A DNA stretch of 64,000 nucleotides from Heterotrichella gracilis (taxonomy: Eukaryota; Sar; Xanthophyceae; Tribonematales; Xanthonemataceae). This document shows positions 13,343 to 64,000 of the stretch, one piece after another. The notes under the pieces are model-generated. The model saw nothing but the letters and a program-made list of their open reading frames with translations. It did not search any database and was not told where the DNA came from. The DNA is taken from positions 1-64,000 of the forward strand of contig JAULBX010031924.1 of NCBI GenBank assembly GCA_032358255.1, given 5' to 3'. Positions within the stretch are counted from its first letter, which is position 1. The number at the start of each line of letters is the position of its first letter. The position numbers and the translations under genes were made by a program.

Positions 13343-14553
13343 ATGTTCGTGCTGTGTGTGCTTGAGGACGACGTGCGGGTGGCGCCCCAGGAGCTCAACC
13401 GCCCCACCCTGGAAGCTGTCCAGTCGGTCCTGGAAGCCACCTACATAGACAAGGTGGTTCCGGACCTGGGCCTGGTGGTCACACTGTTTGACCTGCTGCA
13501 CGTGGAGGGTGGGTTTGTGTACCCTAGCGAGGGTGCCGCGCACTTCAAGGTCAAGTTCCGGGTGGTGGTGTTCAGGCCATTCGCGGGGGAGGTGCTGGTG
13601 GGCAAGCTGCAGCGGGCAGACAGGTGAGGGAGGGGATGGGTGGTGAAAGGGGCGGCCAGATTGAAATGTTGGCCTGGTTACTGGTGTGCTACGCAATTAG
13701 GTGCAACCTGCTCCAATAGGTGGCATTACCCACCATGCCTTGCGCATGTGGTCGTGGGAATGTCTTGCACATGCGCATGGCGGTACACTGACTGGTGGGC
13801 ATCGTCCTCCACAGGACTGGGCTGTACATTTCACTGGGATTCTTTGAGGATGTGTTTGTCCCTGACTACGCGCTACAAGACCCCTCCTTCTGGAACGAGG
13901 CTGAGGGTGCATGGGTATGGAAGTACGACAACAACGAGCTGTTTATGGACAAGGACGAGGACATACGGTTCAGGTACAGTGATATACGGAACACTGAATT
14001 CATGTCCACTGGTCCACTGGTGTCATGCTTCAGTGCCACGACCTTGTTACCCACGCCATGTTGCACTGGCTGCTGCCCTGGTTGTTTGTGTGTCGCAATG
14101 TTGCTGGTTTAAGTGTACTGCCGTTGGTGAAGGCGTTATGTGATTGCTAACCTGGCTGTACTGCCTGAACGCATGTGATCAAATATGTGACCTTTTCTCC
14201 TCCTTTCAAGGTGGTGTCTGTTAATAACAGCGACATTCACTCGTCCCCTGGGGCCATGCTTCAGAGCCATGCCCTGTGGGTTTTCTTACAAGTGCTGGGT
14301 TGTGGTGTACTGCCATTTCTGAAGGTTTTATGTGACCAACCTTCCCACTTGCAGGGTTGTATCTGTGAAGTACAACGACATCCTTGCCATCACGCAGCAC
14401 CAGCGGCTGGAAAGCGAGGGCAGGGGCGAGGCTGCCGTGGGGACGGATGACAACCCCTACAAACCCTTGGAGGTGGTTGGGGACATCAACTCCGATGGGC
14501 TGGGCCTCACGTCGTGGTGGATGGGCAGTGCTGAGGAGGGGGACGAGCAATGA
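13343..14553 (+). CDS. RPC8: DNA-directed RNA polymerase III subunit RPC8 (Rpc25/POLR3H)
   Basis: RPC8 forms the stalk of RNA polymerase III together with Rpc17 and helps initiation on tRNA and 5S genes. Three exons (13343-13623, 13815-13973, 14355-14553) join in frame to 212 residues; human POLR3H has 204. The N-terminal Rpb7-like domain starts MFVLCVLEDDVRV and contains VVTLFDLLHVEGG and the motif HFKVKFRVVVFRPF. The OB-fold domain begins at GLYISLGFFEDVFVP and includes DEDIRFR. The C-terminus LGLTSWW matches the family ending. The second intron (13974-14354) carries a decayed duplicate of the acceptor and the start of exon 3. That duplicate is not used here, because the real exon 3 alone restores RFRVVSVKYND. 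Confidence 0.97.
14099..14250 (+). repeat. Intronic partial copies of RPC8 exon 3 border
   Basis: The segment GTGTACTGCC..GAAGG..TTATGTGA recurs at about 14111, 14156 and 14316. The second and third units run on into exon-like sequence: VVSVNNSDI from 14211 compared with the true exon's VVSVKYNDI from 14356. At the aligned splice position the copy has AAG where the true exon has CAG, so the original acceptor is damaged. This reads as local tandem duplication of intron end plus exon start, followed by decay. Confidence 0.7.
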
Positions 14554-15256
14554 CCATGCGCTGATAGCACACACTGCGAGTGGGAGTTGGCTTGTCTGCA
14601 TGGGTCGTTGTCGTCTATTTGGTGGCAGCCTGGTTTTAGCTTGCCACTGGCTCCTAAAGCGTGCAGGACTATTTTTTCAGCATCCTCTGGGATGAAGCGT
14701 TTGCTTCTGCAGCCTGACGTGCGCCCACTGCCTTTGCAAAGTGAGGAAAAAGGCGTTAGGCTTCACATCCGCAACTTGTGATGAAGTCACCGACAAATTT
14801 GTCTGAGCATGTACATACCTGGGCGATCCGCATTGTTTGACGCTAACAGCCACTGTTTCCCACTATGGTATGTGATTTTATCTTGGCTGGACAATGACGT
14901 CGTTCTGCAGGCATGATATTGCCCGGGTTGCAACCAGTACTGGAGCCATGCCAGTGTACCTTACCCTAAACCCTAACCTAGGGTCACCCTGCAAGGGCTT
15001 CTCGAGTGCCTGTTGCCTGGCATGCACAACACAATCGGCTTACCACTTTTCCCCCTCCTTGACCAGTTGTCAGTACGATCAGCGAAGCGGTTTACCTGGC
15101 TCTACCCTCGTCTGCTTGCCTTCAAGCGCACGCCATTTGTTGGGCATAATCTGCATCACATGTCACCGTGGCATGTTCCTTGATCGGTTCAGTTTGTTCC
15201 CTCGATGTCGTGCGCCATATATCTACTTGAAGACGTGTACAATTTGTGAAGCAGCC
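14554..15256 (+). other. Intergenic between RPC8 and the PEC-like channel
   Basis: This holds the RPC8 3' end and the channel promoter. The frame of the channel's first exon is open from 14894, but the 5' part encodes Cys/Ser-rich sequence without similarity and includes a CCCTAAACCCTAACC run at 14964-14978. I therefore treat it as leader sequence. No TATA box was clearly identified. Confidence 0.4.
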
Positions 15257-19555: not shown

Positions 19556-20332
19556 GGGTCGATGTAGTGCTGCATGCAGTCACTGTGAATGATGTAGGTG
19601 TGTAGCTACTATTGTGCCTTTACAGGCTAAAGAGTTGAAGCAAGCAATATAGCGTAACTTACAGGACATACTAATAGTTGGCAGCCATTTGATCACAATG
19701 ATTGAAACATACGTGTGCAGCGCGCGTGCGGTGCCGAGTGGACACTTTCACGATGACATCAAATAGAGATGTAGTAGCAGTAGATGATACATTCCTGATA
19801 TGCTGATGCATTAGGAAAATTTTGCTAGATAGCAAGCAGTGGACATGGTACGGTAGTAAAGCAACTCTTGAAATTTTCTTCGGGATCGGGAATATGTCGC
19901 CATAAAATTCTGTGATACAGCACTGTGGATGAATAATTGCATTGCCAATCAGCAATTGGTAGCCACAATCAATTGAAGGTTGTTTTTGTCTTCCTTGATT
20001 CAGTTTGCTCGGGTGCATACTATTATATGAGACTTGTGTAAGAGTCTGATCAGTCGACTACTTTGACTAAATCTGAGCATCACGGTAATGTTGTGGTATA
20101 TGCGCATAGACTACAACCGGAACTTAACAGGTTGCCAATATGTTTCAGAAAATGTGGATCCATTCAAACTGTGATGTATTCAAACGTTTACTACGGGTAG
20201 TATGGTGATTAGTCGTGATGTGTACGGTGATTCATTTCCCCCACTGGTCACCCAGCACCCACACCCGCAAGGCCCAGCTTGCTAGTAGCATTCAATTTGC
20301 TTGCCAAGGGCGTTGACTAAACTGCAATCTGC
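19556..20332. other. Convergent spacer, nothing recognised
   Basis: The channel gene (plus) and the next gene (minus) both end here. The 780 bases are AT-rich, with no long frame, no repeat and no RNA gene that I can see. Confidence 0.5.
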
Positions 20333-24581: not shown

Positions 24582-24655
24582 TGCTGCCACTGAAGGCGGA
24601 ATCGTGGATGTAGAGGCCGCGTTGGGTTTGTAGCGGTAGAAGTAGGAGAGCCTAG

Positions 24656-25752: not shown

Positions 25753-25753
25753 G

Positions 25754-26271: not shown

Positions 26272-27401
26272 ATGAAGGGTCTGGCTGTCCAGCTGGTATT
26301 CCTGGCGCTCCTGCTGTCTACCTGCACGTGCCTACCTATTGGCGGCGGGGATGGGGGTGATACACCAGACCCCCCAGTGAAGAAGCCCCCACCAGTCAAG
26401 AAGCCGCCGCCACCTTCACCCAAGCCCCCATCCCCTAAGCCCCCATCACCAAAGCCACCGCCACCGCCACCGCCCCCATCACCAAAGCCACCATCACCAC
26501 CACCACCATCGCCGCCGCCGCCACCACCACCATCGCCGCCACCGCCACCTCCACCATCGCCTCCTCCCCCACCCCCACCATCCCCCAGCCCTCCTCCCCC
26601 GCCGTCCCCCAACCCTCCACCCCCCCCCCCTTCCCCAAGCCCACCATCACCACCATCCCCGAGCCCACCGCACCCACCTCCTCCAAGCCCCTCACCCAAG
26701 CCGCCCAGCCCTCCACCAAAGGTGTCACCCTTACCCTCCCTTTGTCTTGCACCCTCTCTTTCAATCACACCCAGCCCCACCCCAGTGCCACCCTCACCCC
26801 ACCTCTCAACGCACACATCACCCACCCACCTCACCCAGCCCCACACCACTCGTTGTTGAGCGCCACATCAGCCCCACAACCTCGTCATCACCCAGCACCA
26901 CAGCACCCCAGTATCATCAGACACCAGATACACCAGACACTTACCTTCCCCCACTGGAAAACCTCTCCCATCCCCATCGTTAAACAAAACTAACCCCCAA
27001 ATCCTCCCTTCCCCCTCAAGGTCACCCCCCAGAGCAACAAATCCCCGCCACCGAAGCAGAAGTCCCCACCACCCAAGCGGAAGTCCCCACCACCCGCCAC
27101 ACTCAAGTGCTCCATCCCCGGCCAGACATACAGCACAGCCAAGAAGTCCTGCCAGTGCCTCATCACCGGGCAGACCGTCCAGACCCACAAGGTCAGCGGC
27201 AAAACCGTCAAGGAGTGCGCCTGCCCCTGGAATCAGACAGTGCAGACCGTCAAGGTGAATGGCAAGTCGACAAAGCAATGCGCCTGCCCTGTCCCTGGCC
27301 AGAGCCTGGTCAAGGTCAAGACTGGTGTGTTTGCGTGCCAGTGCAAGAAGGGGTACGTGGTCAAGGTGGTCAAGGGCAAGTCCAGCTGCCAGAAGAAGTG
27401 A
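26272..27401 (+). CDS. Secreted Ser-Pro-rich (hydroxyproline-rich) cell-wall glycoprotein
   Basis: Two exons (26272-26721, 27021-27401) give 276 residues. Residues 1-20 are a clear signal peptide (MKGLAVQLVFLALLLSTCTC). About 120 residues of SPPPP, SPKPP and KPPSP repeats follow, the extensin-like pattern whose prolines are hydroxylated and glycosylated in algal walls. Exon 2 begins with KSPPPK repeats and then changes to a Cys-rich tail of about 95 residues made of four imperfect units: GQTYSTAK..CQC, GQTVQTHK..CAC, NQTVQTVK..CAC and GQSLVKVK..CQC, ending KKGYVVKVVKGKSSCQKK. The tail probably forms a small disulphide-bonded, basic domain. If the intron were kept, translation would stop at 26857. 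The gene lies between two minus-strand genes and looks like an independent unit. Confidence 0.85.
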
Positions 27402-31414: not shown

Positions 31415-34400
31415 ATGTCAGCCTTCACAACTACTGTGGCTTCGCAGTCCCAGTCAGCTGTTGGGCGCGTCTCGGCGGGTGCCAGGGCTGGCAGCACACA
31501 GATTGCTCAGTGGCGTGGGCTGTCCTCCAGGCATGGCCCAAGGAGTCTGCGACCATTGCACGGTGAGTTCATATACATTTAAAACTACAAAGAGCTTTTA
31601 AGAAGCTGATTCTGCTGCTGGGTGCCTGCGCTGGCTTCGCCTTACCCGCCTGCAAGTGTACAACTAGCATCGCACGCCATCGCACTCCGATGCCCAACCT
31701 GGGTGGCGTTCGTTGCTTGGTGGTGGGCAAACTAGTTTCTACAGATAGTGTAAAGTGCTATAGAAACCTGTAAGTGCAACCCTGTCGTTTTTCGGTGGAA
31801 GTCGCGACCCACATTGGGTGGTTCTAGTTTTCACCATGGTCATTGGCCCCACATGCCGCCGGAACCCACACCATTTTTCCGAAAGCCCTTAGCTTGGCTT
31901 TCAGAGGCCACTGATGCAAAAAGATTGCTTCACATAAAATAAGGCATTTTCGGGACGGTAGTGGAAAGACCTTGGAATAAGCCTACCAAAAAGGACTTGT
32001 TTTCTGGCGCAGGCATCTCCCTCCAGAGGCCAAAGACGGTTCTCAAGGCGGCGCGTATGCCGCTCGGCACTGAGGCCAACATCTTCGCAAGGATCGGAAG
32101 GATATTCCGTTCTTTCATCAATTCAACAGGTAAGGTTTTGAACCGCATGCACGGTGGTGATCAGTTATAGTTGGGGTGGTCATTGACCTGTCAACAATGC
32201 AGCGCAGTGATGCTGGAATTGACACCTCTGTGTTTGTAGTGAGCGCCCAGGAGGACCCCGAGAAGCTATTGGGTCAGGCTGTGGAAGACATGCAGAACGA
32301 TTTGATCAAGCTGCGGCAAGCCACTGCACAGGTAACCACTCTCACTGCATTGGATTTTGATCCCATTGCATTTGGGCCTCGGGTTATGTGATGGCTTGCT
32401 CACCTGTCCATAGCCTGTTCCTGGCATGCCGCATGTGTGTCAGTCTGGTGGGATGTGCAAGGGTGATTTAAGTGGCCTACTGACAGTACGTCGCCTAAAT
32501 TTCTTCTTCAGGTGAAGGCGTCACTCATGCAAATGGAGAACAAGTACAATCAAGCGCAGACAGGAGCGGTGAGTAACAATTAAATTTGCTGTTGACTGGA
32601 CCAAATGGGCGCCACCTGGTGCACACTACATGCATAGATTGTGGCATGGACATTCTTTTTCCGACTGAGCAGATGGAAGCTGGCATGGCATGTGACGGAA
32701 GTAGTTGAAATTGAATGATGTATGTTGCTGGCATTTGAAATGATTGGCATGCCCACAGGATGACTGGTATCGCCGTGCCGAGCTGGCTCTGGTCCGAGGC
32801 GAAGAGAGCTTGGCCAGGGAAGCACTGGTCAGGCGCAAGGCGTTCCAGGTGCGACCTGCTTGATGATATCACAAGCGCTTCTGGCCTTCTAGCAGCTTGC
32901 CATGGCGAGCATAATATCTTGACTGCGTTGAAATTTGCCACTACTTGAAGCCGCCGCTGACTGGAAACATATCAGGAGTGGGCAGTTATACACACTTTGA
33001 TCTAGACTCTTGTTCTTTAGTAGTGCGATTGGTGTTGTTTGCACCAAATGCTTTTTTTAAGTGTACAGTGACTGTTAAAGGCTATCGTCTTGTGGGTGGT
33101 CTGTGTGCCTGAACAGCCCCTCAGTCCCTGCGTTGAATCAGCTGGCATTATGTCATGCCACATTTCTATATCTCTGGGTTAGTTGTTGAATATGCATGTG
33201 CAGGACAATGCCAATGGCCTGCGCGCCCAGGTTGAGCAGCAGCGCAAGGCCTCAGACACCCTCCTGTCCGCCACCCGTGCCTTGGAAACCAAGCTGGCAG
33301 AATGCAGGGGCAAGAAGGACACACTGCGTGCACGCGCCATGGCGGCCGCAGGTAGGGAGGGGTTAGGTTTTATATTTTAGGTGTGCAGGGCAAGGGGGGA
33401 CGTGCTGCACGTGCGCTCCATGGTAGCTACAGCGAAAATACTTCATTTGTCATTAGCTAATTGTAGAGAAATGCAAACTACAGTACCATGTTTTTTCTCC
33501 ACCATGGTAATGAAATGTAGACAGGAACCCTGTTCAATATCTGTTTAAGTAGCCCTTCGTTGCAAAGATTGCCTTTCAATAAGAGGGTGTACACCTGGCA
33601 CAGGGCAATGCTTGTGCAACGTTCCTGTCCAAGGATATCCTGCATGTATTTTACTTTAGTGTCTTTGGGCCACTGCAGCCAGCCGCGAGATCAGCGACAT
33701 GCTGGCAGGCCTGGATGCCGGGCGCAGTGCCGTGTCTGCCTTCAACCGCATGGAGGAGAAGGTGATGGCACTGGAGGCGGAAGCAGACTCCGCCCTGCAG
33801 GTGAGCCCGCAAACCACTATGTGGACTAAATAATGAAATAGTAAATAGATAAGTTCACAATAACATTGTAAGTGCGGTAAGCGGCACGACTGGTTGGCCA
33901 CCATCTGCCACACTGGAAACAGTGTCAATTAAGCCTTGGCTCTAGGACTGGGGTGAGGCATACCCAGACATGCTAACCTGGCTTCGAAGCTGGAAAGCAA
34001 ATACTTACTTACTTACAATAACATTAATAAGTACGCAGCATGTCCTTGAACAGGCGCGTTGATTACACCTGGGACAGGCGAGGTGGGGTGTCAAGTAGAA
34101 GGGTTGGCCTTGCTGAGGGCTGCGTTGTGCATACACTGCAAATGTGATCGTCCTGTGCCTAAATAGACTGTCAACTGGATGGAGGAGAAGGTGAACTTTG
34201 TGCTGCAGGTGTGTGGGCAACGCATGCAGAGCACATGGAACAAGCGTTTCAGGGAAATAAATGTACGCGGTCGTTGTTAGGAATGAGGCAGAGTGAGGAA
34301 AGCCAGTTTTGGAGGCTGGTATTCCCTCACGTGTTCCAAACATGCAGTTGGCGCTGGCCGTCCATGGCCAGTCTTCAATCTAAATCAACTGCTCGTGCTG

Positions 34401-35399: not shown

Positions 35400-35404
35400 A
35401 AAAA
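35400..35404 (-). terminator. Pol III terminator of tRNA-Gly
   Basis: Five T residues on the minus strand begin six bases after the 3' end of the tRNA, the usual RNA polymerase III stop. Confidence 0.7.
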
Positions 35405-40598: not shown

Positions 40599-43500
40599 AT
40601 GGCTAAGCGCCCGCTGGGCATACTCCAGCGTGAAACAGCCAACACTACCAAACCCAAGCGCCAAAAGCGCGAGAAACCCAGCAGCGACGTGCAGGAACCT
40701 CGCCAGGCACAGGCACAGGCGAAACCACCGCGTGAAAAGCCGCAGCAGCAGCGCGCGCCCAGCACCCCATCGGCATGGCACCCCCACTCGGTGGTGGACC
40801 AACAGGCGGCGTATGCTGTGGGCCGCCTGCTGGCGGCGGACGCCAAGAAGCGCGGAGGGGCGACCCTTAAGTCGTTGACGCTGGGTGCCGGGGTGGAGAA
40901 CAAACGGGCGACCTACGCACTGACTGTGCAAACCATGAAATGTGAGGGGTGCATGCATGCATATGCCAATGCATGCTCACAGTACGCAACATAACTTCAC
41001 CTACACCAGGGTGCACTATCAACGCCTCATATTCAATGCAGTTCAATGGGTGTATACTCGGGTTTCTGGGAGAATTTAGTCCTTTCGTAGCTTATTTAAT
41101 AAGCACGAGTGTGCCCAAGCCTTTGGAAGTGCTGATGAGGTACAATCTACCCCCCCTTCAGCAATGACGCACTCCAACCTCCGCTTGCCTTTGCAGTCAT
41201 CCCACTGCTTCAGGAGCTGCTGGGCCAAACTAACCTCCTCGAAGAGAACGCACAGGTAGGGTTCACCATGCCCTACCAAACCCTAACCGCGCAGCTGCAC
41301 CCCGCCTGAGCACTGGCTGTTGAACCCAGTTTGACCCATGCAACTATTGCCAATAGCATTTGCAAGCACACCCAGCAACCCGCGCCTGGGTGACACCTCG
41401 GTTGTCCTGTCTACGGCACTGTCAAGGGTTTTGCCTAGGATTCTGGGGGTAGCCCGGGCCCGCTTGTACATTGCTGTAAAATATTGGCTAGGACAATCTA
41501 AGTTGGCAAGTATCCTTCATAGCCTCTTCACCCATCTCTGCATGCACCTGGGGATCCTAGGCACCAATGACAAGGGTGCAGCACCAAAACCCTAGGGTTC
41601 TCCTCACCCTGCAGCGCTGCCAGGAGGCAACTTAAGTGCTACTGTACGAGGTGCTGCTCGGCAAGGGATGCACACCCATTACCATACGTGCATGCATATG
41701 CTGTCAAAAGTGGAGACCAACCTTAAACCCTTGTCCTGCGCCTCCCCTTGCAGCATTCTCAACACACACCCCTCCTTCCCCCCTCTGCAGCTGTCTCAGG
41801 AGGCTGCCTATGTGATCCTGTACGAGGTGCTGCTGGGCAAGGGGTGCGCACCCAACGGGCCTGCCGAGCGCTGCATACTGAAGCACAAGGAGCATCTGAA
41901 GGGGGCGCTGGCACTGAAGCTGGCGCAGGAGGGGGTGCAGGTGGGCGACAACCCTAAGCCCAAAACCCTAACCGAGGAGCAGAGGCCTCTGTGCACATAC
42001 ACCACCATCACGTTCAAATGCATGCCCACATTCAAATGCATGCCCACGTTCAAACGCATGGCCACATGCATCACATGTACCATGTGCGCCAAGTCCACCC
42101 ACACGGCTTGTGTGGTGGAGGGTGCAGAAAGTGGAGCAGCTTTTGTCGGCACCCGTGACACACTCAGGTCCCAGTGGCCATGTACTCAATGCATGTATTT
42201 CAATGGGGTACATGGATACAAATGTACGCACATGCGTCGCAGCTCCACATACGCCACCTCCACCCACATGGCAAACCCTAAATCCCAAATCTCCATTGCA
42301 TGGCGTTGGTGCAGAGAGCGGAGCAGCTGTTGTCGGCGGCCGTGACCCACGCGGTGCCCCAGTGGCCTCGCACCGCGCGCGTTAACACGCTCAAGATGGG
42401 CGTGGGGCAGGCGCTGTCGTGGCTGCGGCAGCCGCCCTCGCCATACCAAAACCTGGCTTCCCTGGTAAGGCCGGTCATTGTTGGAGGTATTTATCAGGAA
42501 AATAGGTGGAAACAGGGCCCTAGTCGCATGACATGCACTGTTAGTACACTGGGGGATAACAATTGAAGTGGGGGCATGGCTTGGTTCCATCCCCTGCTAT
42601 CTGCCATCCGCCACTGGTGCAATATTCTTTTTGCCCCTGCCATTTGCCATGTATCACACACCAAATTGCACAATCCCTATACCGATAGCTCGACCAACTG
42701 GGAAAATGCATGTCACAGCAGGCACTTATCTGTTGTGTATACCATACTACCGTAGTACAATCCCATGCCTGTGCAGGGGAAGGGCGTCAGGATCGATGCC
42801 CACCTCCACGACCTCCTACTGTTCCCCCCTGGCACTGACCTACACGCGCACCCCTTGGTCAAGAACGGCACCCTGGTGCTTCAGTCCAAGGCCAGCTGCA
42901 TGCCCGCGCATGTGCTCAGGCCCGAGTTAGGGTGGGGCGTGGTGGATGCCTGCGCTGCACCAGGCAACAAGACAACGCACCTGGCAGGTGAGCAGTGTGC
43001 GCACTCACAAGTTTTGTTGATTCCTGCCAAGGGGTGGTAATGCTATATACCAGGAATATAACGACAATGAAAAAAGACAACGCACCTGACAGGTGGGCAG
43101 CGTGCGCACGTCGGTCACTGCCAGGGGGTGGTAATACTCCAAATTAGGAATAGACCAACAATAAGATAATGCACCTGGCAAACGTGCACGCTATGTGTTT
43201 GGTGGCGGCCACTGCAAGGGCTCTAAAATTTGTTAGGTCGATGCCTAGTCCCATTGTGTTCATGTCTGACAGCTGTCTCACAGACCACGATCGGTGTCAA
43301 TTCATTCCTTACAACCATCCAACTGGAAGGACAGAGTCAGCTCCAAAAGTTTAATGTGGCTCCCACGAATGTTTGGTCTAAAGTTCTTCTGTTGGGTAGC
43401 CAAATCAACCCTTAATTCGTAACCGCAAATCCCTGTCCATACAGCGCTGATGAAAGGGAAGGGCCAAATCCTGGCATTTGACAAGGACCCAAGGCGGCTG

Positions 43501-50489: not shown

Positions 50490-53400
50490 ATGCAGCTCAC
50501 CCGGAACCAGAAGCGCGCTATTGCGGTGAGTGGGCGGTGTACAACCTGCGCTGGGCATCCTAAAGGCATGGGGTTGACTACAGAGAATTACACATGGCTT
50601 TCCTTTCAAGCTGCGTTTGCCCGTTGCCGCAGTTGCTCCTGGTGGCCGGCGGTGGCGTTTCGGCCAAGATTCTTCAGATAGAGGTGAAAGCTGCTCGGAA
50701 GGAGCAGGCTAAGCTATGCCAGGACATCGAGCAGGCGGGGCCCGGGAAGTCCAAGTCACAGAAAGTGGCTGTGGATGCTGTTTTCTTCGCCCGGTTGAAG
50801 AGGATTTTGAAAATGTAACCTCCCTTGCTGTGTATCATTCGTGCCCCAGGTCCTGCTACAGCAACCTGTGCTGACCTTGCAAACTGCACCATGGTATATG
50901 GGCCCTGTAGCGGGTCTCAACTCAAAGCTCGCATACCAACCTGTGGTGTGTGGCATTGCCTGCAGCTGCGTACCCAGCCTCTACTCCTATGAGGCAGCTC
51001 TTATCGGTGTCCAAGGCCTGCTGCTGTTCTCACGAACCAAGCTCACAGACCAGATCTCGCGGATAGAGGGCAAATCTGGAAGGCACCTGCTGCAGCAGGT
51101 AACCCACACAGAACTGCTGCCAGACAGTGCACCACACTTCTGTGTTTGATGAATCAACCAGGAGGCTTGCTGCACTTTTTCATATTGTTGAGCAAAGTTG
51201 CCGTATGCATGCATATAGCACCATGGGTACGCCTCGCGATCTGTGCTTAGCCAAGGCTATTAGCGTTTGAATATGCTGCTCTTGTGAGTTGGTGGACTGG
51301 CACACAGCAGAACGCAGAACCACGCAACACCAATCATACACGACTGCTTGGATCGCAATGCGTTGCTGCCGTTTCCCTCGCTCACCTCTGGCCCTTACCG
51401 CACACAGGAGTTCCCTCAGTTTGCGCGCCTGCTGGTCTCCTTTGCCATCGTGGCTGTGCCCGCCGCCATTGTGAACAGCGGGCTCAAGTTCATGCAGAAG
51501 CAGATCAAGTTTGCGTTCATGCGCCGCCTCACGCTGCACCTGCACGAGCAGTACTGCAACAACAGGGCGTACTATGCGGCATCCACGCTGGGAGGTGGGT
51601 GCCGCAGGGCGGGGTGGTGGGGCATGGTGTGGGCGGTGGTGGTGGCGCCTGGGTGGTGGTGGTGGTGGTGGTGGTGACTCAGTACGCATTGTGTAAAGGA
51701 ACCTTGTTGGGTGAGGTTTTAGGGCTCCTGAATTCTTGGAGGTAGGTAGCAGGGTCTAGTTGCGTTTTTCACGCTGGCGGGCAGGTGTCACAGCAGGGGT
51801 GGCGCGGGAGTCTAGGGGACAGCGGGCAAAGGTGGGGGAGGGGGTGGGGTGGGGTATGGAGGGAGGGGCACCTTGAACACCCGTGCCGCGGTTGTGACAT
51901 GAAAAGGAACTTGGGGCGCTCGTGGAGGTGAAACCACTGCTTGAAAGTGGGCAGGTAGGCCTGGGAGGGTGAAAGCTGGCGTTCTGCAGCACCAGTGTCC
52001 AGCAGGCCTGCATACATAGGCACCCACATACGTATCAATTTTCTTAGGCAGTTCACATGCACGTGTCCCACTCCGCAGGCCTCACGCATGCCGACCAGCG
52101 CATCACCGAGGACGTTGAGAAGTTTGCGTACGCCATCAGCGAGCTGTACAGCTACACGCTCAAGGTAGGCAGGGGAGCAGGGTGTACTGTTTAAGGTTCA
52201 GGGAGGCGCAGTAACCTGCCGCTTGCCGCTCGCCACTTGGACACATCTGATACCTAAGGCATCGAACTGCTAGCCAGATGTACGCGCCTGCCAGCCCAGT
52301 CAAACACCACACCAGACTCCCTTTACCCCACCCTTTACCCCACCCCCACCCGCAGCCCCTTTTGGATGCCCTGTTCACCCGCACCCTGCACTCACCAGCT
52401 CATACACACTCCACCCATAACCCCTTCTGGATGGGTCCCTGTTTCACAACCACCCCCCACTCCCCCACCCCCTCGTAACCCACCACCCACCCCCTCCCCC
52501 AATTCCGCAGCCCCTCCTGGATGTGGCACTGTTCACCCGCTCCCTGGGCCAGACTATGGGCTACCGCGGCCAGCTGGCGCTGTACGGCTACTACCTGGTG
52601 TCGGCCGGGGTGCTGCGCGCATGCAGCCCGCCGCTGGCGCTGATGACTGCGCAGGAGGGAGCGCTGACAGGGGCCTTCAGGAGCGCACACCAGGTGGGTG
52701 GGGGTGGGTGGGAGGTAATCAAGTTTGGGGTTTTAGGTGGGCGCACCGGGTAGTGGCGGTGGATTGAGGGGTGCTGCGCGCATTCAGCTCGCCATAGCGG
52801 GGCCACTTGCTGGCATGGCCGGGCATGAGGGGTCGCTCACGGGTGCATCGAGGAGCGCATGGGGTGGGTGGGTGGGGAAAGGAGAGCGGAGGAGGGGGGC
52901 ACAGGGTTGCGCGCCAGGTGTGTGCTGGGAGTGGGAGGTTGGGGATGGTGTGTGTTGGATGGTGGTTGCTCGGGGGTGCTGTCAGGAGCGTGTGCAAAGT
53001 GGATGGGGTGGCGGAATGGGGGGTGGGGTGGTGGGCCATCCTGGCGCCTGGTTGCCCTACCTTTAGTGAGATTGCGTACAGTGCATTTCTGCATGAGCCT
53101 CTTCACAGCTAAGAGCCCTTCTTTCCCCCCCTGCAGCGCCTGGTTGCCCACTCTGAGGAGGTTGCCTACAACGACCCCCCTGCTGGTGCTGCGGAGCAGA
53201 TCATCCTGAACAACCACCTCACGCGCCTGCTGCAGCACAGCAGGCTCAGCGCCTTCCAGGTGTTTGTGCAGCAGGTGAGAATGACGTGGGAGCGAGTACT
53301 ATGAGGCGATTCCACGTTAGGCGCTTGTAGCCTGCGGTAATTGATCCCCGCAACTAGGGGACAATCACAACATCACACATTGGCTTGGCAGTCCCTTGGG

Positions 53401-56116
53401 GCATCAATTCACCCGCAGAGCCTCTCCAGACACAACATAATGGAGATGCATTCCCACCTGGTTGCCTCTCCAAACTGTTAGCCGTTCGAGAAATCCTTGA
53501 CCCGCTCACTAGACCCACCTCATGCCCCCCTCAGGTCCTGGACGGGTACTTTGTCAAGTACTTTGCCTCTGTGATTGCGCTGGGCGTGTACGCGCTGCCC
53601 ATCTACTACACAGACCCCATGGCCAGGGGGGACACGGGGGTGCTCACGCAGGACTACATCAGGTCAATGAGGCTGCTGCAGAACACATCCAGGTGGGGGG
53701 AGGGTGCGGGCTGGGGTGGTATATGTGAGCGTTAGGGTGCGAAGGGTGGGGAAGGGAATACAAACCGCTTTAGGATAGCTTTGACCCAATCATGTGCACG
53801 TGCCAAGAAGTGGCGGGGGTTTGGCAGCACAAATTGAGTAAACCTTACAAAACCCATGCAAAGTATCAAACTTTGGGGGACTTTCAGCTTGATCCTGGAC
53901 AAGTATATCTAGAACTCAACCTGATGAGGTATGCCACGTGTTGTGTGCAGGGGCATTGGCGACCTTGTGCTTGTGTACAAGCGGGTCACAGCGCTGGCGG
54001 GACACACGTCTAGGGTGTCGGAGCTGCTGGAGCAGGTGCGGGGATACCCTATAGGCGGCACCCGCACATGTAATCCATATGACCACTGGTATCACATATT
54101 TCATGTATATACGGGTTTGGGCGTTTGCATTTTGGTACCACAGTATACCACGGATGGTGTTGGGTGTGCTCCTGGCCACATTCCCAAGCGCATGAAAGCA
54201 TGTGTGATCACGCCACCCACTGCATGCATGCGCTCTCACCCCACCACCACCACCACCACTGAGCTTGTGAGCGACAAAACGCAGCCACCTACCCACCCAC
54301 CCACCCCCCTCCCCCTCTTTACCACACTGCCCCCTCCCCCCCTTGCAGGTGAAGCTCCTGAGCGACAAGAACGCCGCCACCTACCACGCGCAGCTGTACC
54401 AGCGCAACATCAGTCACACCACGCTCATGGGGGGGAGGAACGCAAACGGGGAGGACATCCCGGAGCCGCGCAGGATCACGGGGGAGACAGTCAAGTTCTA
54501 CCGGTAAGCGCGGGATGCATCAGTGAACAAATCAGTGGTTGCCTATCCAGGCATTGGTTATCAGGCATCAGTTGGCCAGTGATCGTTGATCAGCTATCAG
54601 TGATCATCCATTGGATGGTCAGTGATGACTGGTGAACAATCAGTAATCACCCGCATCCTGCCGCATCCCACGCCTGCCCTCCCCATTTTCTGTGGCACCC
54701 CCACCCCCCATCTGTTTCGCCGAGGCACTCCCCACTCCTCCCCTCCCGCATTACAACCCCACCTCCACCCATGCCTCCTCACCCCTCCGCTCCTCCCCCT
54801 CGCAGGGTTGCGCTCAACTCGCCTGACAACACCCCGCTTGTACGCGAGCTGAGCTTTGAGGTGCAGCCAGGGAGGTCTGTCATGATCATGGGGCCCAACG
54901 GGAGCGGCAAGTCATCGCTCTTCAGGGTCATGGCGGGGCTGTGGCCACTACAGGTGAAACCTTAAACCCTAAGCTCTTGGACCTTACCCCAACCTGCGCC
55001 CTTGCCTGATGGCAAGCACCCTGCGCAGCCAGTTGCTGTACCCACCCTCAAAATCCCTTACATTTGTACCACTATCTGCATGTTGATATACCCTTGAACC
55101 GCCTCCTGCATGCTTGGTCTCCCCTTGATTTCCTTTGTTTTGCCCCAATCTCAGGGTGGCGAGGTGACTGTCCCCGACAAGCGCACCATGTTCTACCTCA
55201 GCCAGCGGCCCTACCTGGTGTCGGGCACACTGCGCGACCAGCTGCTGTACCCGCTGCCCCCACGGGCGCTGTGGGGCCGCGCATCGCCACGCATGAGGGC
55301 TAGGTTCCAGGCCTGGGTGCCGGCGGATGTGGACGATTTCGACGGCATGGAGGCGCGGCTGTGCTCCTGCCTGGAGGCGGTGGAGCTGGAGTACCTGCTG
55401 GGAAGGTGGGTGCAAATCTTAAACCCGAGACCCTAAACCATGGGGTTTTGTGCTGGGCATCCCTCCAGGGGCATGCGTGTATGGTAGCTATGAGCAGGAG
55501 TATCTGCTGAGCAGATGGGTGGCATGGATTTGGCGTTTTTCTTTTAACCTCTTTTTTTACATCTGAATTTCACATGTGGGCGAGCTGGATTACCTGCTGC
55601 GCAGGTAAGTGTAGATTTAAAACCCTAAGGGGTTTAGTAAGGGTTTAGTGGTAGACCTGAGCAGCGCTTTGTCATGACTCGCCTGTTGTTCCACCGCTGT
55701 GCATCATGCACCCACCCACCACGCCCGCCAGCCCCCCACCAACCCCCTCCCCCCCCCACCACCCCTGCCTCCACACCACCCCCCTCCCCCACATCCACAC
55801 ACCCGTCCCCCTCCGCAGGGGCAAGGGCTGGGACCAGACTCAGAACTGGAACGACACCCTGAGCGGGGGCGAGAAGCAGCGCCTGGCCATGGCCCGCCTG
55901 CTGTTCCACCAGCCGCAGTACGCCATCCTGGACGAGTGCACCAGCGCGGTGAGCGCCGACGGGGAGGTCAAGCTGTACTCCGAGTGCATCAAGGCGGGCA
56001 TCACGCTCATGTCCATCGCGCACCGCCCCGCGCTCAAGAAGTTCCACGCGCTGGTCATCCACTTTGAGGGGGGCCAGGCGGGGCACGGGTGGCACATTGA
56101 GGAGACGGGCAACTGA
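50490..56116 (+). CDS. ABCD: Peroxisomal ABC half-transporter, subfamily D (ALDP/PMP70 type)
   Basis: ABCD proteins dimerise in the peroxisomal membrane and import acyl-CoAs for beta-oxidation. Thirteen exons join in frame to 679 residues: 50490-50525, 50633-50814, 50966-51098, 51408-51594, 52079-52164, 52511-52693, 53137-53274, 53535-53692, 53951-54035, 54349-54503, 54806-54953, 55155-55405 and 55819-56116. PMP70 has 659. The membrane domain shows the family text YYAASTLGGLTHADQRITED, VEKFAYAIS and HSEEVAYND (the EAA-like loop). The ATPase domain has Walker A GPNGSGKSS (about 477), signature LSGGEKQR (about 594), Walker B YAILDECTSAVS (about 614) and the switch His in SIAHRP (about 647). All motifs are intact. 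Many of its introns hold partial copies of neighbouring exons. Confidence 0.97.
52349..52455 (+). repeat. Two intronic copies of ABCD exon 6 start
   Basis: The true start at 52504 (CCGCAGCCCCTCCTGGATG followed by TGGCACTGTTCACCCGCTCC) is echoed at 52350 (CCGCAGCCCCTTTTGGATG then CCCTGTTCACCCGCACCC) and more weakly at 52416 (CATAACCCCTTCTGGATGGG then CCCTGTTTCAC). The first copy keeps its acceptor. Confidence 0.85.
52768..52870 (+). repeat. Intronic copy of ABCD exon 6 end with donor
   Basis: GGGGTGCTGCGCGCATTCAG, CTCGCCA, GAGGGGTCGCTCACGGGTGC and AGGAGCGCATGGGGTGGGTG align with the exon 6 end (52608-52703), which reads GGGGTGCTGCGCGCATGCAG and AGGAGCGCACACCAGGTGGG. Exon end, donor and the G-rich intron start were duplicated about 160 bases downstream. 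Confidence 0.88.
53038..53095 (+). repeat. Intronic copy of ABCD exon 7 start
   Basis: GGCGCCTGGTTGCCCTACC, then GTGAGATTGCGTACA, matches the true exon 7 start at 53137 (CGCCTGGTTGCCCACTCTG, AGGAGGTTGCCTACA). The acceptor is lost in the copy (ATCCTGG in place of CCTGCAG). Confidence 0.75.
54257..54297 (+). repeat. Intronic copy of ABCD exon 10 start
   Basis: GAGCTTGTGAGCGACAAAAC followed by GCAGCCACCTACCC matches the exon 10 start at 54352 (AAGCTCCTGAGCGACAAGAA, CGCCGCCACCTACCAC). It lies about 95 bases upstream in the same intron, after a CCACCA run. Confidence 0.8.
55017..55052 (+). repeat. Intronic copy of an inner ABCD exon 12 segment
   Basis: CACCCTGCGCAGCCAGTTGC followed by TGTACCCACC matches the inner exon 12 segment at 55228-55258 (CACACTGCGCGACCAGCTGC, TGTACCCGCT). 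Here the copy comes from the inside of the exon, not its edge, and lies about 210 bases upstream. Confidence 0.75.
55492..55612 (+). repeat. Two intronic copies of ABCD exon 12 end
   Basis: The exon end GAGCTGGAGTACCTGCTGGG AAGGTGGGTG (from 55383) recurs as GAGCAGGAGTATCTGCTGAG CAGATGGGTGG at 55495 and as GAGCTGGATTACCTGCTGCG CAGGTAAGTG at 55582. The last has a better donor than the true exon. Both the true intron start and the last copy run into TTAAAACCCTAA-type text. Confidence 0.88.
55662..55712 (+). repeat. Intronic copy of an inner ABCD exon 13 segment
   Basis: AGCAGCGCTTTGTCATGACT followed by CGCCTGTTGTTCCACCG matches the exon 13 segment that follows the ABC signature (55875-55911: AGCAGCGCCTGGCCATGGCC, CGCCTGCTGTTCCACCA). 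It lies 210 bases upstream, inside the preceding intron. Confidence 0.88.
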
Positions 56117-57586: not shown

Positions 57587-59002
57587 TCATTGTGACTGCT
57601 TTGACAGCAACGGTGTTCTGATTGTTGCAGGTGGTTGTGTGGGCCTTTCAGGTGATCCGGGCCCCCATTGTTTCAAACCCTGCGCAAAGCCCACCAAAAG
57701 TCTAGTGGCACCCGTAAATTCGATCAGTGGGTGTGGCATGCCGCATTCTCGGAGTGCGCACTCAGCCAACCCAAAACAACCCACCTTGGCAGGTACACAC
57801 AACCAGAGCAAAAATCTCATCGCCACCACCAACGCATCCTGGAACGATGTCGTCCTGGACACTTCACCAGTGGAGGGTGACTTGTCTGCAGATGGGATTG
57901 TCTCAAGCTTATTTGCAAGAGGCTTGTCTGCACATGGCCTTGTCTGCGGCTTATTTGCAAGGGGCTTGCCTGCACAGGGGCTTGTCTGAGGCTTGTGAGC
58001 TTGGGGCTTGTCTGCCAAAGGCAAGTCTGCACAGAACAAGAGAATCACAGCAGTCCTGCATAATGACCATCGAGGTGGATCGATAGAAGTGGGTACACGT
58101 GCATACACCAGCACTGAAGGAAACCAAGGGCTGCTGGCCACCATCGTCAGGCAAACTGCTGCTCCAGAGGTTTGCATATTGCGTGTCTTACCCAAATTAT
58201 GCAAACGGTATTCAGATGGTTTTGTAAGGTGGTCTATTGCCTTTCTGCGGATGTAGCTGGACAGGACTTGTGCCAGGTGTTCCTCTGGGGTTGCAGCCAG
58301 CCACATCACCTGTTCATCTCTCTCAACTGACAACAAGACAAACAGCTCGCCTTTGTCTGGTCTGCTCAAACCTGCGCACTTTGCCATCTTTGCAACGTTT
58401 TTCTCCCTCGCTGTCAGGAGGTCCATGGTTCCCAATGTGTCTGCGGAGGGGCTTGTCTGAGGCTTGTTTGCATGAAGCAAGATCTTGTCTGCACAGGGAC
58501 AAAAAAGTTACAGCAACCTTCATAAGGAAAACCGGTTGAAGTGGGTAGCAGGACAGCAAGGGCCGTTGGCCACCATTGTGGGGCCGCTGAGAACGCTCAC
58601 GCAAACTGCTGCTCTAGAGTTATGCATACTGGGTGTCTTACCCATATTTTGCATACGGTATTCAGAGTTGTGGCAAGGCAATTATTGCTTACCTATTGCC
58701 TCGCAAGTGCTGAGCTTGAAGTCAGACAGGGCGTCAGCCAGGATTTCCTCTGGGTGTGCAGCCAGACGCATTACAGTCTCGTCGCTCTCTTGTAGCAACA
58801 ACACAAGCAAGTTGACTATTTCTGGTTTGCTTAAACCTTGGAATTTTCCTATCTTCGCAAGTGCTTTCTGTCTGCCTGTCCTGGGGTCCATGGTTCCCAA
58901 CATGCACGCTGGCAGCTGCAGGAGGGCGTTCCAGTCAGCACAGCTGTCGCCCTCGCTACCCAAGGAGGCGAACGAAGTGCTTGGCGTGTCGGCGTGTTCC
59001 AC
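57587..59002 (-). CDS. Unrecognised protein with a tandemly duplicated exon (5' end missing)
   Basis: Three exons keep frame: 59002-58693, 58488-58192 and 58026-57587, for 348 residues to a stop. The first exon starts at an acceptor (CAGGTAG) without ATG, so the N-terminus lies upstream and was not found. Exons 1 and 2 are paralogous. Both code GTMD..T.R.K..AK..K..GLS (with Pro next but one) followed by LLVLL or LFVLL, VM.LAA.PEE.LA and a final helix, about 65 residues of a helical, ARM/HEAT-like appearance. The third exon opens with five ADKP/ANK units coded by a tandem DNA repeat, then a hydrophobic stretch (DALVVAMRFLLWLCVPAKVG). The duplicated DNA includes intron sequence. I cannot assign a function. 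Confidence 0.6.
58024..58906 (-). repeat. Tandem duplication of an exon with flanking intron
   Basis: 58024-58443 and 58484-58906 repeat each other in the same order. Shared marks are CTTGTCTGCACAG with the acceptor, GGCCA.CAGCCCTTGG or its variant, GCAGCAGTTTGC, TTATGCA..CGGTATTCAGA, the exon itself, and CATGGTTCCCAA. Unlike the intronic copies elsewhere, both exons here are open and spliced in phase. Confidence 0.9.
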
Positions 59003-60790: not shown

Positions 60791-61553
60791 TTAGCCAGGC
60801 CCCACTTTGGGTATGTCGTGGTGCTCCGACAGGCTGGCCAGGTGCTGGTTGTACTCCTGGATGCGCTCCCTGTGGGTCTTGTGAGCAAGCTTGGTCAGCA
60901 GGCCCTCCTCAAGCACCCGCCGCCGCTCGTCAAACTTGCGCTCCGCCTCAGTGCGGGTGTCTGCGTCGGGCGGGGGCGGCTCCAGGATGGTGCCCTCGCG
61001 GGTGGCTTTTGGGGCATCCTGTGGGGAAACCACGGTGTGGGGTAAGGCATGGGGTGGTGTGGGTGGGTGGCATGTGAGGCAAGGCATGGTATGGCATGGG
61101 TGGGTGGTGAGGAGGCCTGAAGCTTGCTGCAGTCCGTCGCCGGAAGCGTGACGGCAGACATGCGGGGGCTCCAGGATAGTGCCCACACGTGGGGCCTTCG
61201 GGTCTCCAATGGCTAGACATGGCGTGGTGTGGGTGTGTGGCCTGTGGGGTATCCAATGGCCAGGCATGGCGTGGTGTAATTGGCTGCGGTATCGAGTCAT
61301 AGGTTGTGGATGGAGGCTGGTCTGATGCGCACATGGAGAAGGTGCAGATCTATTGCACTTGGATGCACAAGCACACAGTGCTGCAGGGAGCTTGGCCAAC
61401 AGTCCAATGTCTGCTTGTGCATCTGCTGCTTGCCTTGTTTTTCTCCTCTGAGCTTGGGTCGATAGCAAGCTCCTTGCTCCTCTTCTTTTTCTTCTTGCTC
61501 ACCCCGGCCACCTCCACCCCCTTAAGCTTGAGCTTGCCACCCACAAACGACAT
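60791..61553 (-). CDS. FAM32A: FAM32A-like nucleolar/spliceosomal protein
   Basis: FAM32A is a small conserved nuclear protein, seen in the human step-II spliceosome next to the 3' splice site. Two exons (61553-61434, 61018-60791) give 115 residues; human has 112. The N-terminus GGKLKLKGVEVAGVSKKKKK matches the family start (LKLKGV..GV.K.KKK). The C-terminus THRERIQEYNQHLASLSEHH followed by DIPKVGPG is the family hallmark. The intron has a GC donor (AAG|GCAAGC) and a CAG acceptor, which restores the frame exactly; no GT donor does so. The intron also contains a decayed copy of the start of exon 2 (61148-61205). Confidence 0.93.
61148..61205 (-). repeat. Intronic copy of FAM32A exon 2 start
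   Basis: On the minus strand the copy codes DPKAPRVGTILEPP where the true exon reads DAPKATREGTILEPP, then diverges. It lies 150 bases upstream of the true exon, inside the intron. GACCC replaces the acceptor AGGATG, so the splice site is gone. Confidence 0.88.
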
Positions 61554-62754
61554 GGCTGGCCAGTGCTGCCTATTGCTGCTGGTCGTGCTTTGGATCCGCG
61601 ACCACGTAGTGGTATGCCACGACTAGAACCATGATGACTACTCCTAGCCAGTTCTGTGAGCAACGGCAGGCTTTCAGGTCACATACTCGAGCCCATCGTA
61701 CTTGTTTGCAGAGGGCATAATTGTGCCATCAGTGCTCATCAGCATATGCATGCATCATGACTATAGGAGATGTTGGTAGAAAAAACACACCCCTGCAGCA
61801 GTGGGCGACAAGCCACAGCAACTAACGATGCGATGCTTATATCCATAGCTGCCGCAGTGAAACTCACCGTGAAATAGCCCAAATCTCTGTCGTCGATCAT
61901 GGCTGATCCCTCCAACAGCACAACGTGTTCCCAACAAGGCGCCTACACTCTGCAACAACAGTGCCTTTACAGTCAGTGTGGGTACCCGTTACAAGACGCC
62001 CTTGCTATGAAACACTGCCTTGTCAAGACAATCGAAACGAATGGAGTTCAGGGGGGGGTGCAATGCAAAAACGGGGTGTGCAACGCAGCTTATGTATGCA
62101 TGCATTGGCCATGCGCAAGGCTAGTTTGTAATGGTAGTTTACTGCGCGTGCAAAACTGGTTGCGGGCGAAGTCCTCCTGTACTTAAGCAGTTGTTAGACT
62201 GCGGCATAGCAGTATATTTCCCGACGCTCCATTGGGGCATGCATGCACCCGTTGACAAGTGCCCACACGCCCAGTTGACTTGGACCCGATGAAGCAATAT
62301 AACACCCTCAATGTAATTTAAACGCATTTATTGTTGACTTAAAGTCGGTGCTTGACAGGACACAGCCTTTTCTGGTGGGGCACAGCGCAACTACTGAACT
62401 CGTGCAGTGCTTGCACAGCAGTTGGTTTGCCCCTGTGGAGTGGATCTGGTGTAAGAAACGCTCAGGTGTGCTTCATGATCGACCATAAAATCACTCTCTG
62501 GTCACCGCCGTGCACCAGTCCCTTGGTGGACCCTTCTGGCCAAAACCCTGTACACATGCCTGTTGATATCTGGGATACACTATTTGCTTCAAGTTCTTCT
62601 GCACAATACCCTGCGCATGTACCTGCAAGGAACCCATACACCCACCTTTCCACACTGAAGTACATGACTTTGATACAGGCAACCCAACGCACCGCCCACT
62701 CCCCACCATGCCCCCCCACCCACCCTTCCCCCTCACACCCCACCCAAGCACCCG
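61554..62754. other. Divergent spacer FAM32A / Kelch gene
   Basis: Holds both promoters. A 95-codon frame at 61899-62186 (MADPSNSTTCSQQGAYTLQQ, Cys-rich) has no known family, no signal peptide and no splice context, so it is not called. Confidence 0.4.
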
Positions 62755-64000
62755 ATGAAGTGGACCCTCGCCACCGCCACTTCGCTCGAGCTGCCACCCG
62801 CACCACGCGTGGGCCACATCGCCATCGCAGTGGACGCCTACTCAGTGTGGGGCGACGAGTTTGTGCTTGTGCATGGCGGGCTCAGCGATGAGAAGCTGGC
62901 GCTGTCTGATGTGGTGGTGCTGCAGTGCGGGGCGGCGCAATGGCTCCGGCCGCAGGTAGGAGGAACAATTTTGATGAATTTTGATCATTCCTGGAAAAAA
63001 TGGAATTTTTTAATACAGATGACTGCGGATTTTAGTCAGAACTTCAAATATGCAATTTATTTGTGCACCAGCCAGACAGCCAGGTCAGCACCCTGGCCTA
63101 CATGCCTTCCGCCTGCCACTCCTGTGCTCGCACTGCATTAACCCCAAAAAATAAGCCTTGCCACAGGTTCGTGGCCGCCCGCCTGCACGCGCCTTCCATG
63201 CAGGCGCCTCCCTTGGTCAGCGCCTGTTTGTGTTTGGCGGGCATGTGTTTATGAAGGAGAAAAAGGGGCTGCACAAGTTCAACGACATGTGGTGCCTGGA
63301 CGTGGTGCGTAGTGGTGGTTGGGGGGGTCTAGGGTTTTGGGTGTGGAATTTAGGGTTTATGGTTTACGGTTGTGGAGCTGCACAAGTTCAATCACATGTG
63401 GTGCCTGGATGTGGTGCATGCGGTGGGGTGGCATGGGGTAGGGCAAGGGAACTGCGCCAGGGGATGCCGGCGGCTGTGGTTGCACATGGCAGAGGAGACG
63501 CGCATCGTGTTCAATCAAACGCACCATTTGGAGAGGATAACCCCGCCGGGTGCCAATAGTCAGGTGGCGAATGCTTGACTTCTGGGTAATTTTGAGAATG
63601 TAGCATTTGCATGGGCCAATGCTGCTGCAGCCACCCACCAATATGCCACCCTGCTTTGCCAAGTGCTTCCCACTCATGCAATGTGCAGTGGTGCAGTATA
63701 CCTATTGCTGCACATCGTACATGTGTATGTACGATGGATATGTGTGTGTGTGCATTGGCTCCTGGGGATTCAGTGGACGTCCCAATTAGGATCCCACCAT
63801 CCCTTCCCAATTTTCCAATCCCCGCTCCCCCCCTTGCAGTCCACATGGGAGTGGAGTGTGATCGACCTGGTGCCCGATTCCCCCCTGCCCGCCCCGCGCG
63901 ATTTCACCTCCCTTGTCGCGCTGGATGGGGACAGGTTGTTGCTGTTCGGAGGTCTGGACAGCAGCGATAGGAGGATGGATGACCTGTGGCTGTTTGATGT
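62755..64000 (+). CDS. Kelch-repeat protein, truncated by the window end
   Basis: Kelch repeats fold into a beta-propeller used for protein binding. Exons 62755-62955, 63167-63304 and 63840-64000 (continuing beyond the window) join in frame. Repeats are visible as PPAPRVGHIAIAVD..FVLVHGGLSD, then PPARAFHAGASLGQRLFVFG followed by FNDMWCLDV, then PAPRDFTSLVALDGDRLLLF followed by DDLWLFDV. Each has the GG pair or its equivalent and the spaced Trp. The start MKWTLATATSLELPPAPRVG fits the beginning of a propeller. What follows the propeller, and so the protein's role, is not in view. Intron 2 holds a copy of the exon 2 end. Confidence 0.9.
63366..63420 (+). repeat. Intronic copy of Kelch exon 2 end with donor
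   Basis: GAGCTGCACAAGTTCAATCA CATGTGGTGCCTGGATGTG|GTGCAT repeats the exon end at 63266-63310 (GGGCTGCACAAGTTCAACGA CATGTGGTGCCTGGACGTG|GTGCGT) with few changes, about 107 bases downstream. TTTAGGGTTTATGG-type text lies between them. Confidence 0.93.

Follow-up and report, generated by a model that had tools for sequence, protein, structure and literature searches.

Introns of the alga Heterotrichella gracilis (Xanthophyceae) carry partial copies of the borders of their neighbouring exons, lying close to their source and in the same orientation, and these duplications track short interstitial TTTAGGG repeats, the genome's own telomere unit. We analysed a stretch of 64,000 nucleotides (contig JAULBX010031924.1, positions 1 to 64,000; C899:1-64000 of the 68.5-Mb genome in 903 contigs; hereafter the window) together with twenty 10-kb stretches from elsewhere in the genome (200 kb), giving a main sample of 264 kb; eight further stretches of 5 kb were fetched after the main analysis. 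The telomere-repeat association, which went unremarked in the original prediction made from the window, points to break repair, and the introns probably carry scars of recurrent local DNA-break repair in which telomere repeats were added at the join.

Local direct repeats were detected with an ungapped diagonal scan (+1/-1 scoring, low complexity masked, score of at least 16). In the window this revealed 175-250 direct pairs per 1000 diagonals at distances of 20-200 bp and 20-50 at 200-600 bp, compared with 1.0 at 6-10 kb. Class counts were restricted to pairs 60-600 bp apart, leaving out distances below 60 bp to avoid minisatellites. At these distances the 264 kb contained 140 raw pairs (42 in the window, 98 in the sampled stretches); one local shuffle of each sequence contained none of this score, and the same scan of 50 kb of E. 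coli K-12 returned 3 pairs. Clustering gave 102 direct events (31 in the window, 71 in the sampled stretches), as against 7 inverted pairs within 600 bp. Templated insertion in inverted orientation was rejected on this scarcity of inverted repeats. Separately, near-perfect long inverted repeats, rare in the genome sample, were noted at 46303-46359/46390-46446 of the window and at 5884-5952/6036-6104 of L016.

Exons and introns were labelled by a small gene finder for which the analysed sequence itself served as training data. Its borders agreed with hand-read reading frames for most exons of RPC8, VIPP1, NSUN5 and ABCD; its errors include a wrong first start and last exon end in RPC8, false calls in NSUN5 (tiny exons and one intron), and in VIPP1 an intron extending beyond the stop and one copy labelled as exon. 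The comparison of exons with their own introns suggested in the original prediction was run on window and sample: each exon plus 25 bp of flank was aligned with its own neighbouring intron and with 100 control introns at score 28. Own introns were matched by 52 of 682 exon sides (7.6%; 13/162 in the window and 39/520 in the sample), while 0.10% of the control comparisons matched, and 64 of the 682 exon sides beat all 100 controls, where 6.8 were expected. The copies thus exceed chance, share the orientation of their source and are local, as had been claimed; the claimed distance of mostly 60-360 bases also agrees with the 60-334 bp found in 41 exon-intron pairs (scan of 60-600 bp, exon 58310-58488 excluded), one pair in VIPP1 being 429 bp apart. 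Local duplication is therefore real and genome-wide, and affects about 8% of exon sides at the given sensitivity. Its presence in nearly every intron-rich gene was too strong a statement at the level of introns: the 13 of 162 window exon sides are a minority and the sample is patchy, with 7 of the 20 sampled 10-kb stretches lacking any pair and two others containing 27 and 20 raw pairs.

An assembly artefact was considered and rejected on the divergence of the copies (median identity 0.85, quartiles 0.80 and 0.90). This analysis covered 51 alignments of the 52 exon sides with copies, a side of exon 58310-58488 being left out; 3 of the 51 hold fewer than 8 exon bases and are matches of the 25-bp flank. 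The case is qualified by 7 of the 51 alignments, which are 95-100% identical. The 12 aligned copies of the window are 71-93% identical to their sources and are in this respect unlike assembly duplicates. A mixed assembly of two species was likewise rejected, since the codon usage of duplication-rich and duplication-poor stretches correlated at 0.961, within the range of random halves (mean 0.977, minimum 0.947).

The copies follow a border rule, by which exon starts are copied upstream and exon ends downstream. Among 45 exon-intron clusters, 23 were starts copied upstream, 17 ends copied downstream and 5 the opposite. The rule was obeyed in 40 of these 45 rows, whereas 68% would be expected from a random exon part at equal distances (P 0.001); when each exon side was counted once, it was obeyed in 36 of 39 (P 4e-4), and without exon 58310-58488 in 40 of 41 (P 3e-6). 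Four rows of that exon, of which a 42-bp repeat array accounts for three and a larger duplication for the fourth, were excluded from the border simulation, the extension test and the counts of distance and telomere proximity. Dispersed copying, which predicts the 68%, fits 40/45 poorly and was rejected. Past the end of the match, similarity continued towards the intron (0.486 versus 0.385 in controls, P 2e-6), while deeper into the exon it was 0.413 (P 0.09, not significant). The border rule and this intron-ward extension are what would be expected if a unit were duplicated head to tail and one of its ends lay inside the exon. Head-to-tail units are clear in L021 (4850-5035), in the L025 and L030 arrays and in NSUN5 at 43 kb of the window; older pairs are alignable only in part, and their similarity extends directionally. 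The data support tandem duplication across exon-intron borders.

The position of 70 chained events was compared with a rotated annotation. Exon-intron events numbered 40, about 1.4 times the 28.1 +- 3.9 expected, next to 17 intron-intron (20.8 expected), 12 exon-exon (11.3), 1 intergenic-intron (0.8), 0 exon-intergenic (2.6) and 0 intergenic events (6.4 +- 2.3). The intergenic deficit depends on gene-finder labels, which sometimes extend introns into intergenic DNA, for example past the VIPP1 stop. The exon-intron excess is modest and may be explained by slower divergence of pairs with one constrained member. Introns beside copy-bearing exon sides were longer than the others (median 366.5 bp, n=52, versus 299 bp, n=630; P 0.0025), which is no more than consistent with growth, as longer introns also offer more target. 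The original claim that recurrent tandem duplication across borders lengthens introns holds as regards recurrence, locality, the border rule (40/45) and the longer introns, and fails as regards ubiquity and absolute border-specificity (40 versus 28.1).

These counts bear on a rival explanation, namely ordinary tandem duplication by slippage or fill-in throughout the genome, with border copies as its tolerated, slowly decaying part and the telomere stubs as an unrelated feature of introns. The occurrence of intron-intron events and the small exon-intron excess agree with it, as do the 46 of 67 duplication groups whose best pair has a spacer free of telomere runs. Nevertheless, we regard it as rather unlikely in view of the telomere repeats themselves: runs fall inside duplication intervals 2.6 times as often as random points, a result replicated in the further stretches, they correlate with duplications at the level of tiles, introns with both features are in excess (odds ratios 8.8 and 3.9), and the runs lie beside the copies rather than in the middle of the spacer.

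The association first appears in word composition. When 8-mers were ranked by their ratio between rich and poor tiles, the first three were telomere words, and all seven telomere 8-mers were within the top 14; they occurred 56-113 times each in rich tiles, while among the other words of the 40 listed the highest count was 47. For a shared element of the introner type, looked for by this 8-mer comparison only, the frequent enriched words were the telomere words, the other listed words being rarer. Exact telomere-like runs of at least 9 bases numbered 136 in the 264 kb, as against 9, 13 and 22 for three permuted units, and ranged from 0 to 31 per 10-kb stretch. Over 26 tiles the run count correlated with the duplication count (rho 0.73, P 3e-5; permuted units -0.47, -0.21 and 0.31). 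The 136 runs were located in introns (128), exons (6) and intergenic DNA (2); in the 11 richer loci, 114 intronic runs over 88 kb compared with 2 intergenic runs over 24 kb (P 6e-10).

Runs were concentrated within the duplications. Duplication intervals contained 58 of the 136 runs, compared with 22.1 +- 4.0 expected from random non-exonic points of the same stretch or tile, and none of 500 trials reached 58. For raw pairs, telomeric bases made up 9.0% of the 40 bp of spacer adjoining copy 1 and 8.3% of the 40 bp adjoining copy 2. Their share was 2.2% in mid-spacer and about 3% in the copies; outside the pairs it was 4-5% up to 60 bp away and 2-3% at distances of 60-300 bp. As the arrays of L021, L025 and L030 yield several raw pairs each, the spacer test was repeated with one pair per group (67 groups), which gave 7.3% beside the copies, 0.6% in mid-spacer and 2.0% outside. 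Among 396 introns, 34 had both features, 39 telomere runs only and 29 a duplication only (odds ratio 8.8, P 1e-12); for introns of 200-600 bp in rich loci the odds ratio was 3.9 (P 6e-4). In the eight further stretches, runs (12, 9, 8, 4, 4, 2, 0, 0) and duplications (9, 7, 4, 2, 2, 0, 0, 1) correlated with rho 0.95, a value that uses runs counted within these stretches themselves; selecting rich and poor stretches beforehand by their 14-base hits had only weak predictive value for duplication (9, 7, 2, 0 versus 4, 2, 0, 1 pairs; 18 versus 7). Of their 39 runs, 17 were inside duplication intervals (5.0 expected) and 37 were intronic.

The interstitial unit is the organism's own telomere repeat. 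TTTAGGG arrays of at least 56 bp were found on 11 contigs. Six of them start no more than 138 bases into their contig and read CCCTAAA, the orientation of a telomere; the remaining five all have the opposite orientation. Exact placements of the repeat in the genome number 7154 for the 14-mer and 834 for the 21-mer (overlapping ones counted), compared with 4 and 0 for the reversed controls. A telomerase RNA-binding domain is present, in two pieces.

Explicit arrays of copy, telomere repeat and copy were seen in L021, L025, L030 and L031. L025 2421-2790 displays, in order, an exon end with its 5' splice site, a telomere stub, a copy that again comprises exon end and 5' splice site, a second stub and a third copy. 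In L021, the intron after exon 7375-7512 opens with GT and telomere repeats at once, followed by an exon-end copy with GT and by repeats again. L025 1540-1930 contains three exon-start copies, each followed by a telomere stub and a pyrimidine tract, ahead of the authentic exon, and L030 2075-2378 consists of several 63-bp units, each with a bit of exon start and a telomere stub. The last two arrays, with a telomere run in each unit, would also be compatible with the reverse order of events, in which unstable telomere-like repeats came first and their flanks were later duplicated through template switching or unequal exchange between tracts. Instability of telomere tracts has been published (PMC6410037; reportedly also PMC11626172). 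We consider this order improbable: in the cases shown, one unit edge lies inside an exon without a visible tract, so that exchange between tracts does not explain the first duplication, and duplications without any visible tract exist.

The runs become denser towards both ends of introns, which might suggest that CCCTAAA is a functional intronic splicing element, a branch point or enhancer, and for this reason clusters near splice sites and copies. A strand bias would fit such a role, CCCTAAA prevailing on the coding strand by 93 to 35 and, between upstream copies and their exons, by 22 to 4 runs. However, 323 of the 396 introns have no run of at least 9, runs are as common within 50 bp of the 5' splice site (41) as of the 3' splice site (37), and their number varies from 0 to 31 per 10-kb stretch within one genome, all of which makes this explanation very improbable.

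The copies decay like non-coding DNA. In the 51 alignments, mismatches by codon position were 88/646, 104/644 and 135/633 (13.6, 16.1 and 21.3%), a modest third-position excess that fits constraint on the exon side alone, and 4 of 48 gaps in exon parts were divisible by 3. Copied splice sites are not visibly purged, with AG intact in 17 of 20 cases and GT in 9 of 12, together 26/32 (81%); at 85% identity per base, about 72% would be retained. That the copies are tandem exon duplications kept as alternative exons could be read from this retention of AG and GT and from the VIPP1 copy that the gene finder labelled as an exon. We give this reading almost no credence, since the retention is near its expectation, codon-position mismatches are only mildly uneven, 44 of 48 gaps are not a multiple of 3 and mostly partial exons were copied; the copies lack the coding constraint expected of alternative (mutually exclusive) exons.

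For recurrent break repair we propose the following course of events. A break with staggered ends would occur near an exon border, and fill-in of the overhang, tens to a few hundred bases that often include the splice site, would produce a head-to-tail duplication. In a good share of cases TTTAGGG repeats, presumably supplied by telomerase, would be added at the broken end before rejoining, leaving a telomere stub between the two copies. The exon fragment carried by the outer copy would then stay inside the lengthened intron and decay neutrally, and splicing would keep using the authentic site. We infer these steps from what is observed directly: the local direct duplications, their border geometry, their patchiness, the non-coding-like decay of the copies and the concentration of telomere repeats between them.

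Several results weigh against this course of events. A run of at least 8 lies in the best-pair spacer of 21 of the 67 duplication groups only, a run of at least 9 between the copies in 19 of 45 exon-intron pairs, and a run of at least 8 within 45 bp of or between the copies in 27 of 41 exon-intron pairs. In the further stretches, which provided 25 raw pairs and drew seven of these from a single array, the spacer edge (10.9% telomeric bases) did not contrast with the middle (10.0%), and the copies reached 21.6%. All four dropped rows of exon 58310-58488 break the border rule, some copies are exon interiors without a border, and the seven copies of 95-100% identity are aligned over 19-65 bp, shorter than a whole recent unit. 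Finally, predicted intergenic DNA contains almost no duplications or telomere runs, where random breakage predicts otherwise; for both, this deficit depends on the gene-finder labels. The majority of groups without a telomere run and the four dropped rows led us to lower our confidence in break repair slightly and to raise that in plain tandem duplication to the same small degree.

We tentatively suggest that this lineage may grow its introns, and perhaps bear some of them, by intragenic break repair in which telomerase caps broken ends that are then rejoined with duplication. If so, telomere stubs and decoy splice sites would come to surround the exon borders, and since both scars are nearly lacking outside genes, either breakage or its tolerance would be tied to transcription or splicing. 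The system joins three topics usually treated separately, namely intron growth, break repair with small duplications and telomere repeats inside chromosomes. Because every scar still lies next to the sequence it came from, the events lend themselves to counting, dating and testing, and the decoy splice sites, 26 of 32 with intact dinucleotides, offer a natural test of how splicing selects the authentic border.

Each ingredient is known, and their combination at splice sites is new. Internal gene duplication, or tandem genomic duplication, was reportedly treated by Gao and Lynch in 2009. Tandem genomic duplication as a route of intron gain has been reviewed (PMC3443670), and introners are treated in PMC9860276. 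In the potato RdRp gene, a new intron arose from a tandem duplication that crossed an intron-exon border (PMC4974935). This single event in print, a duplication that carried the 3' splice site and the exon start, has the geometry seen here. It differs in outcome: the potato case and the Rogers model concern a source of new introns, whereas the algal copies are internal to introns, affect about 8% of exon sides and are associated with telomere repeats.

Interstitial telomeric sequences of mammals were inserted at double-strand breaks (PMC2246262, PMC7215372). Plain duplication of the flanks was found at 3 of 66 loci in the horse, where complex changes account for 2 more, at 6 of 130 in rodents and at 4 of 25 in primates (PMC7215372, PMC2246262); the horse paper ascribes it to staggered breaks. 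The alga resembles these mammals in having its own telomere repeat inside chromosomes, sometimes with direct flank duplication; flank duplication around a telomere stub is seen here in the spacer edges and the duplication intervals, with no edge effect in the further stretches. It differs from them in the intronic location of 128 of 136 runs, in the 58 of 136 inside duplication intervals and in the 7154 fourteen-base placements, while the intronic share of human interstitial telomeric sequences, 31%, fits random insertion. Repair-mediated proximal duplication that includes exons and splice sites has been described in vertebrates (PMC2671141). Copies within 50 bp of their template were dropped from that dataset as tandem, and it contains one exon copy in opposite orientation and only 4 partial exon/intron donors; the algal events are, in comparison, local, direct and often at borders. 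Fill-in of protruding ends leads to homology-independent small tandem duplications in mammalian cells (PMC8355091), the system in which this mechanism was shown; telomere repeats at the join are unmentioned in the accessible part of the text. Among the matches listed in our literature search, which covered titles and the starts of abstracts and had most subscription journals outside its scope, no paper describes telomere stubs at duplicated exon borders.

In the window, partial copies of exon borders were found where the original prediction had placed them, in RPC8, VIPP1, a Coa1-like gene, NSUN5, ABCD, FAM32A and a putative Kelch gene (all on the plus strand apart from FAM32A). Spliced models of RPC8, VIPP1, NSUN5, ABCD and FAM32A gave Pfam matches above the cut-off, and the Coa1-like gene a TIM21 match that was sub-threshold only; this identity check covered these six genes. 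In NSUN5, ABCD and the Kelch gene, telomere-like runs of at least 8 were found next to copies or between them.

RPC8, whose spliced protein matches PF08292 (6.2e-33), contains at 14184-14236 a decayed copy of the 3' splice site and start of exon 3 (14355-14553, 3' end hand-read), 53 bp long, 72% identical to its source at 14329-14381 and 145 bp from it. This copy chains together with the fragments 14007-14044/14238-14275 (offset 231) and 14106-14143/14298-14335 (offset 192), and we read the three together as a single unit, about 231 bp long and repeated head to tail, in which copy 1 runs to about 14236 and copy 2 starts at 14238. In VIPP1 (PF04012, 5.3e-48), an exon segment at 33742-33765 is copied at 34171-34194 (22/24 identical, 429 bp away), within the 42-bp piece 34167-34208 that ends at GT and was accepted as an exon by the gene finder. 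Upstream of exon 38721-38894 of the Coa1-like gene lie a first copy unit at 38398-38506 (109 bp aligned, 79% identical to 38570-38679), of which 38398-38429 also resembles the start of this exon at a distance of 334 bp, and a second copy of the 3' splice site and exon start at 38534-38594 (57 bp aligned, 93%, AG kept). Telomere-like CCCTAAA runs of this gene lie in an intron between 38981 and 39023 (38981-38991, 38999-39007 and 39009-39023).

NSUN5 carries a copy of the start of exon 41791-41940 at 41621-41678 (176 bp away, 84%, with an in-frame stop), a little downstream of a telomere-like run at 41587-41594, and a copy of the 3' splice site and start of exon 42315-42464 at 42121-42179 (59 bp, 85%, AG kept), with a run at 42273-42282 between copy and exon. 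Two copies of the end of exon 42777-42987 lie within 43064-43180, at 43064-43109 (105 bp away, 5' splice site with GT kept) and 43159-43180 (194 bp away); no run of at least 8 was found at this array. The NSUN5 protein as assembled here has its closest matches in green algae such as Micractinium (55% identity at 96% coverage), Coccomyxa subellipsoidea and Parachlorella (57% at 87% coverage), all three genera being trebouxiophytes.

In ABCD, the start of exon 52511-52693 is copied at 52363-52388 (26 bp, 92%) and its end at 52768-52855 (77 bp aligned, 81%). The interior of exon 55155-55405 is copied at 54985-55043 (59 bp, 76%), with a telomere-like run at 54963-54972 just upstream, and its end twice within 55492-55625, at 55492-55521 (109 bp away) and 55582-55625 (199 bp away, GT intact), with runs nearby at 55430-55439, 55620-55628 and 55640-55648. 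The third copy of this exon end (55582-55611) reads GTAAGT, versus GTGGGT at the modelled exon end, the former being closer to the general donor consensus. A copy of the interior of exon 55819-56116 lies at 55660-55695 (36 bp, 83%). Weaker ABCD copies, recognised by eye at about 53040 and 54260, do not belong to the exon sides of the window that outscored every control. In FAM32A, the start of exon 60806-61018 is copied at 61172-61202 on the minus strand (189 bp away, 77%), and this exon side beats all 100 controls. The Kelch gene has a copy of the exon end 63265-63295 at 63374-63404 (109 bp away, 90%), with a telomere-like run at 63349-63359 between the two; the pair stands outside the exon-intron rows, as both sides are labelled exons.

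Other repeats of the window include a larger duplication beside the 42-bp tandem repeat (58147-58309, 58597-58774 and 57881-58015, 450-465 bp apart), which contains two related, diverged open frames on the minus strand, and a 27-bp minisatellite in a predicted intron at 37454-37621 (consensus GATGGTACCTGCATGGCAAATGCATGC). An open frame at 26272-27401 is proline-rich with many SPPPP-like repeats, and we take it to resemble a glycoprotein of cell-wall type. The median exon of the genome sample is 142.5 bp; in L036 (G000:C6:40001-45000) the gene finder labels all 5000 bases as coding.

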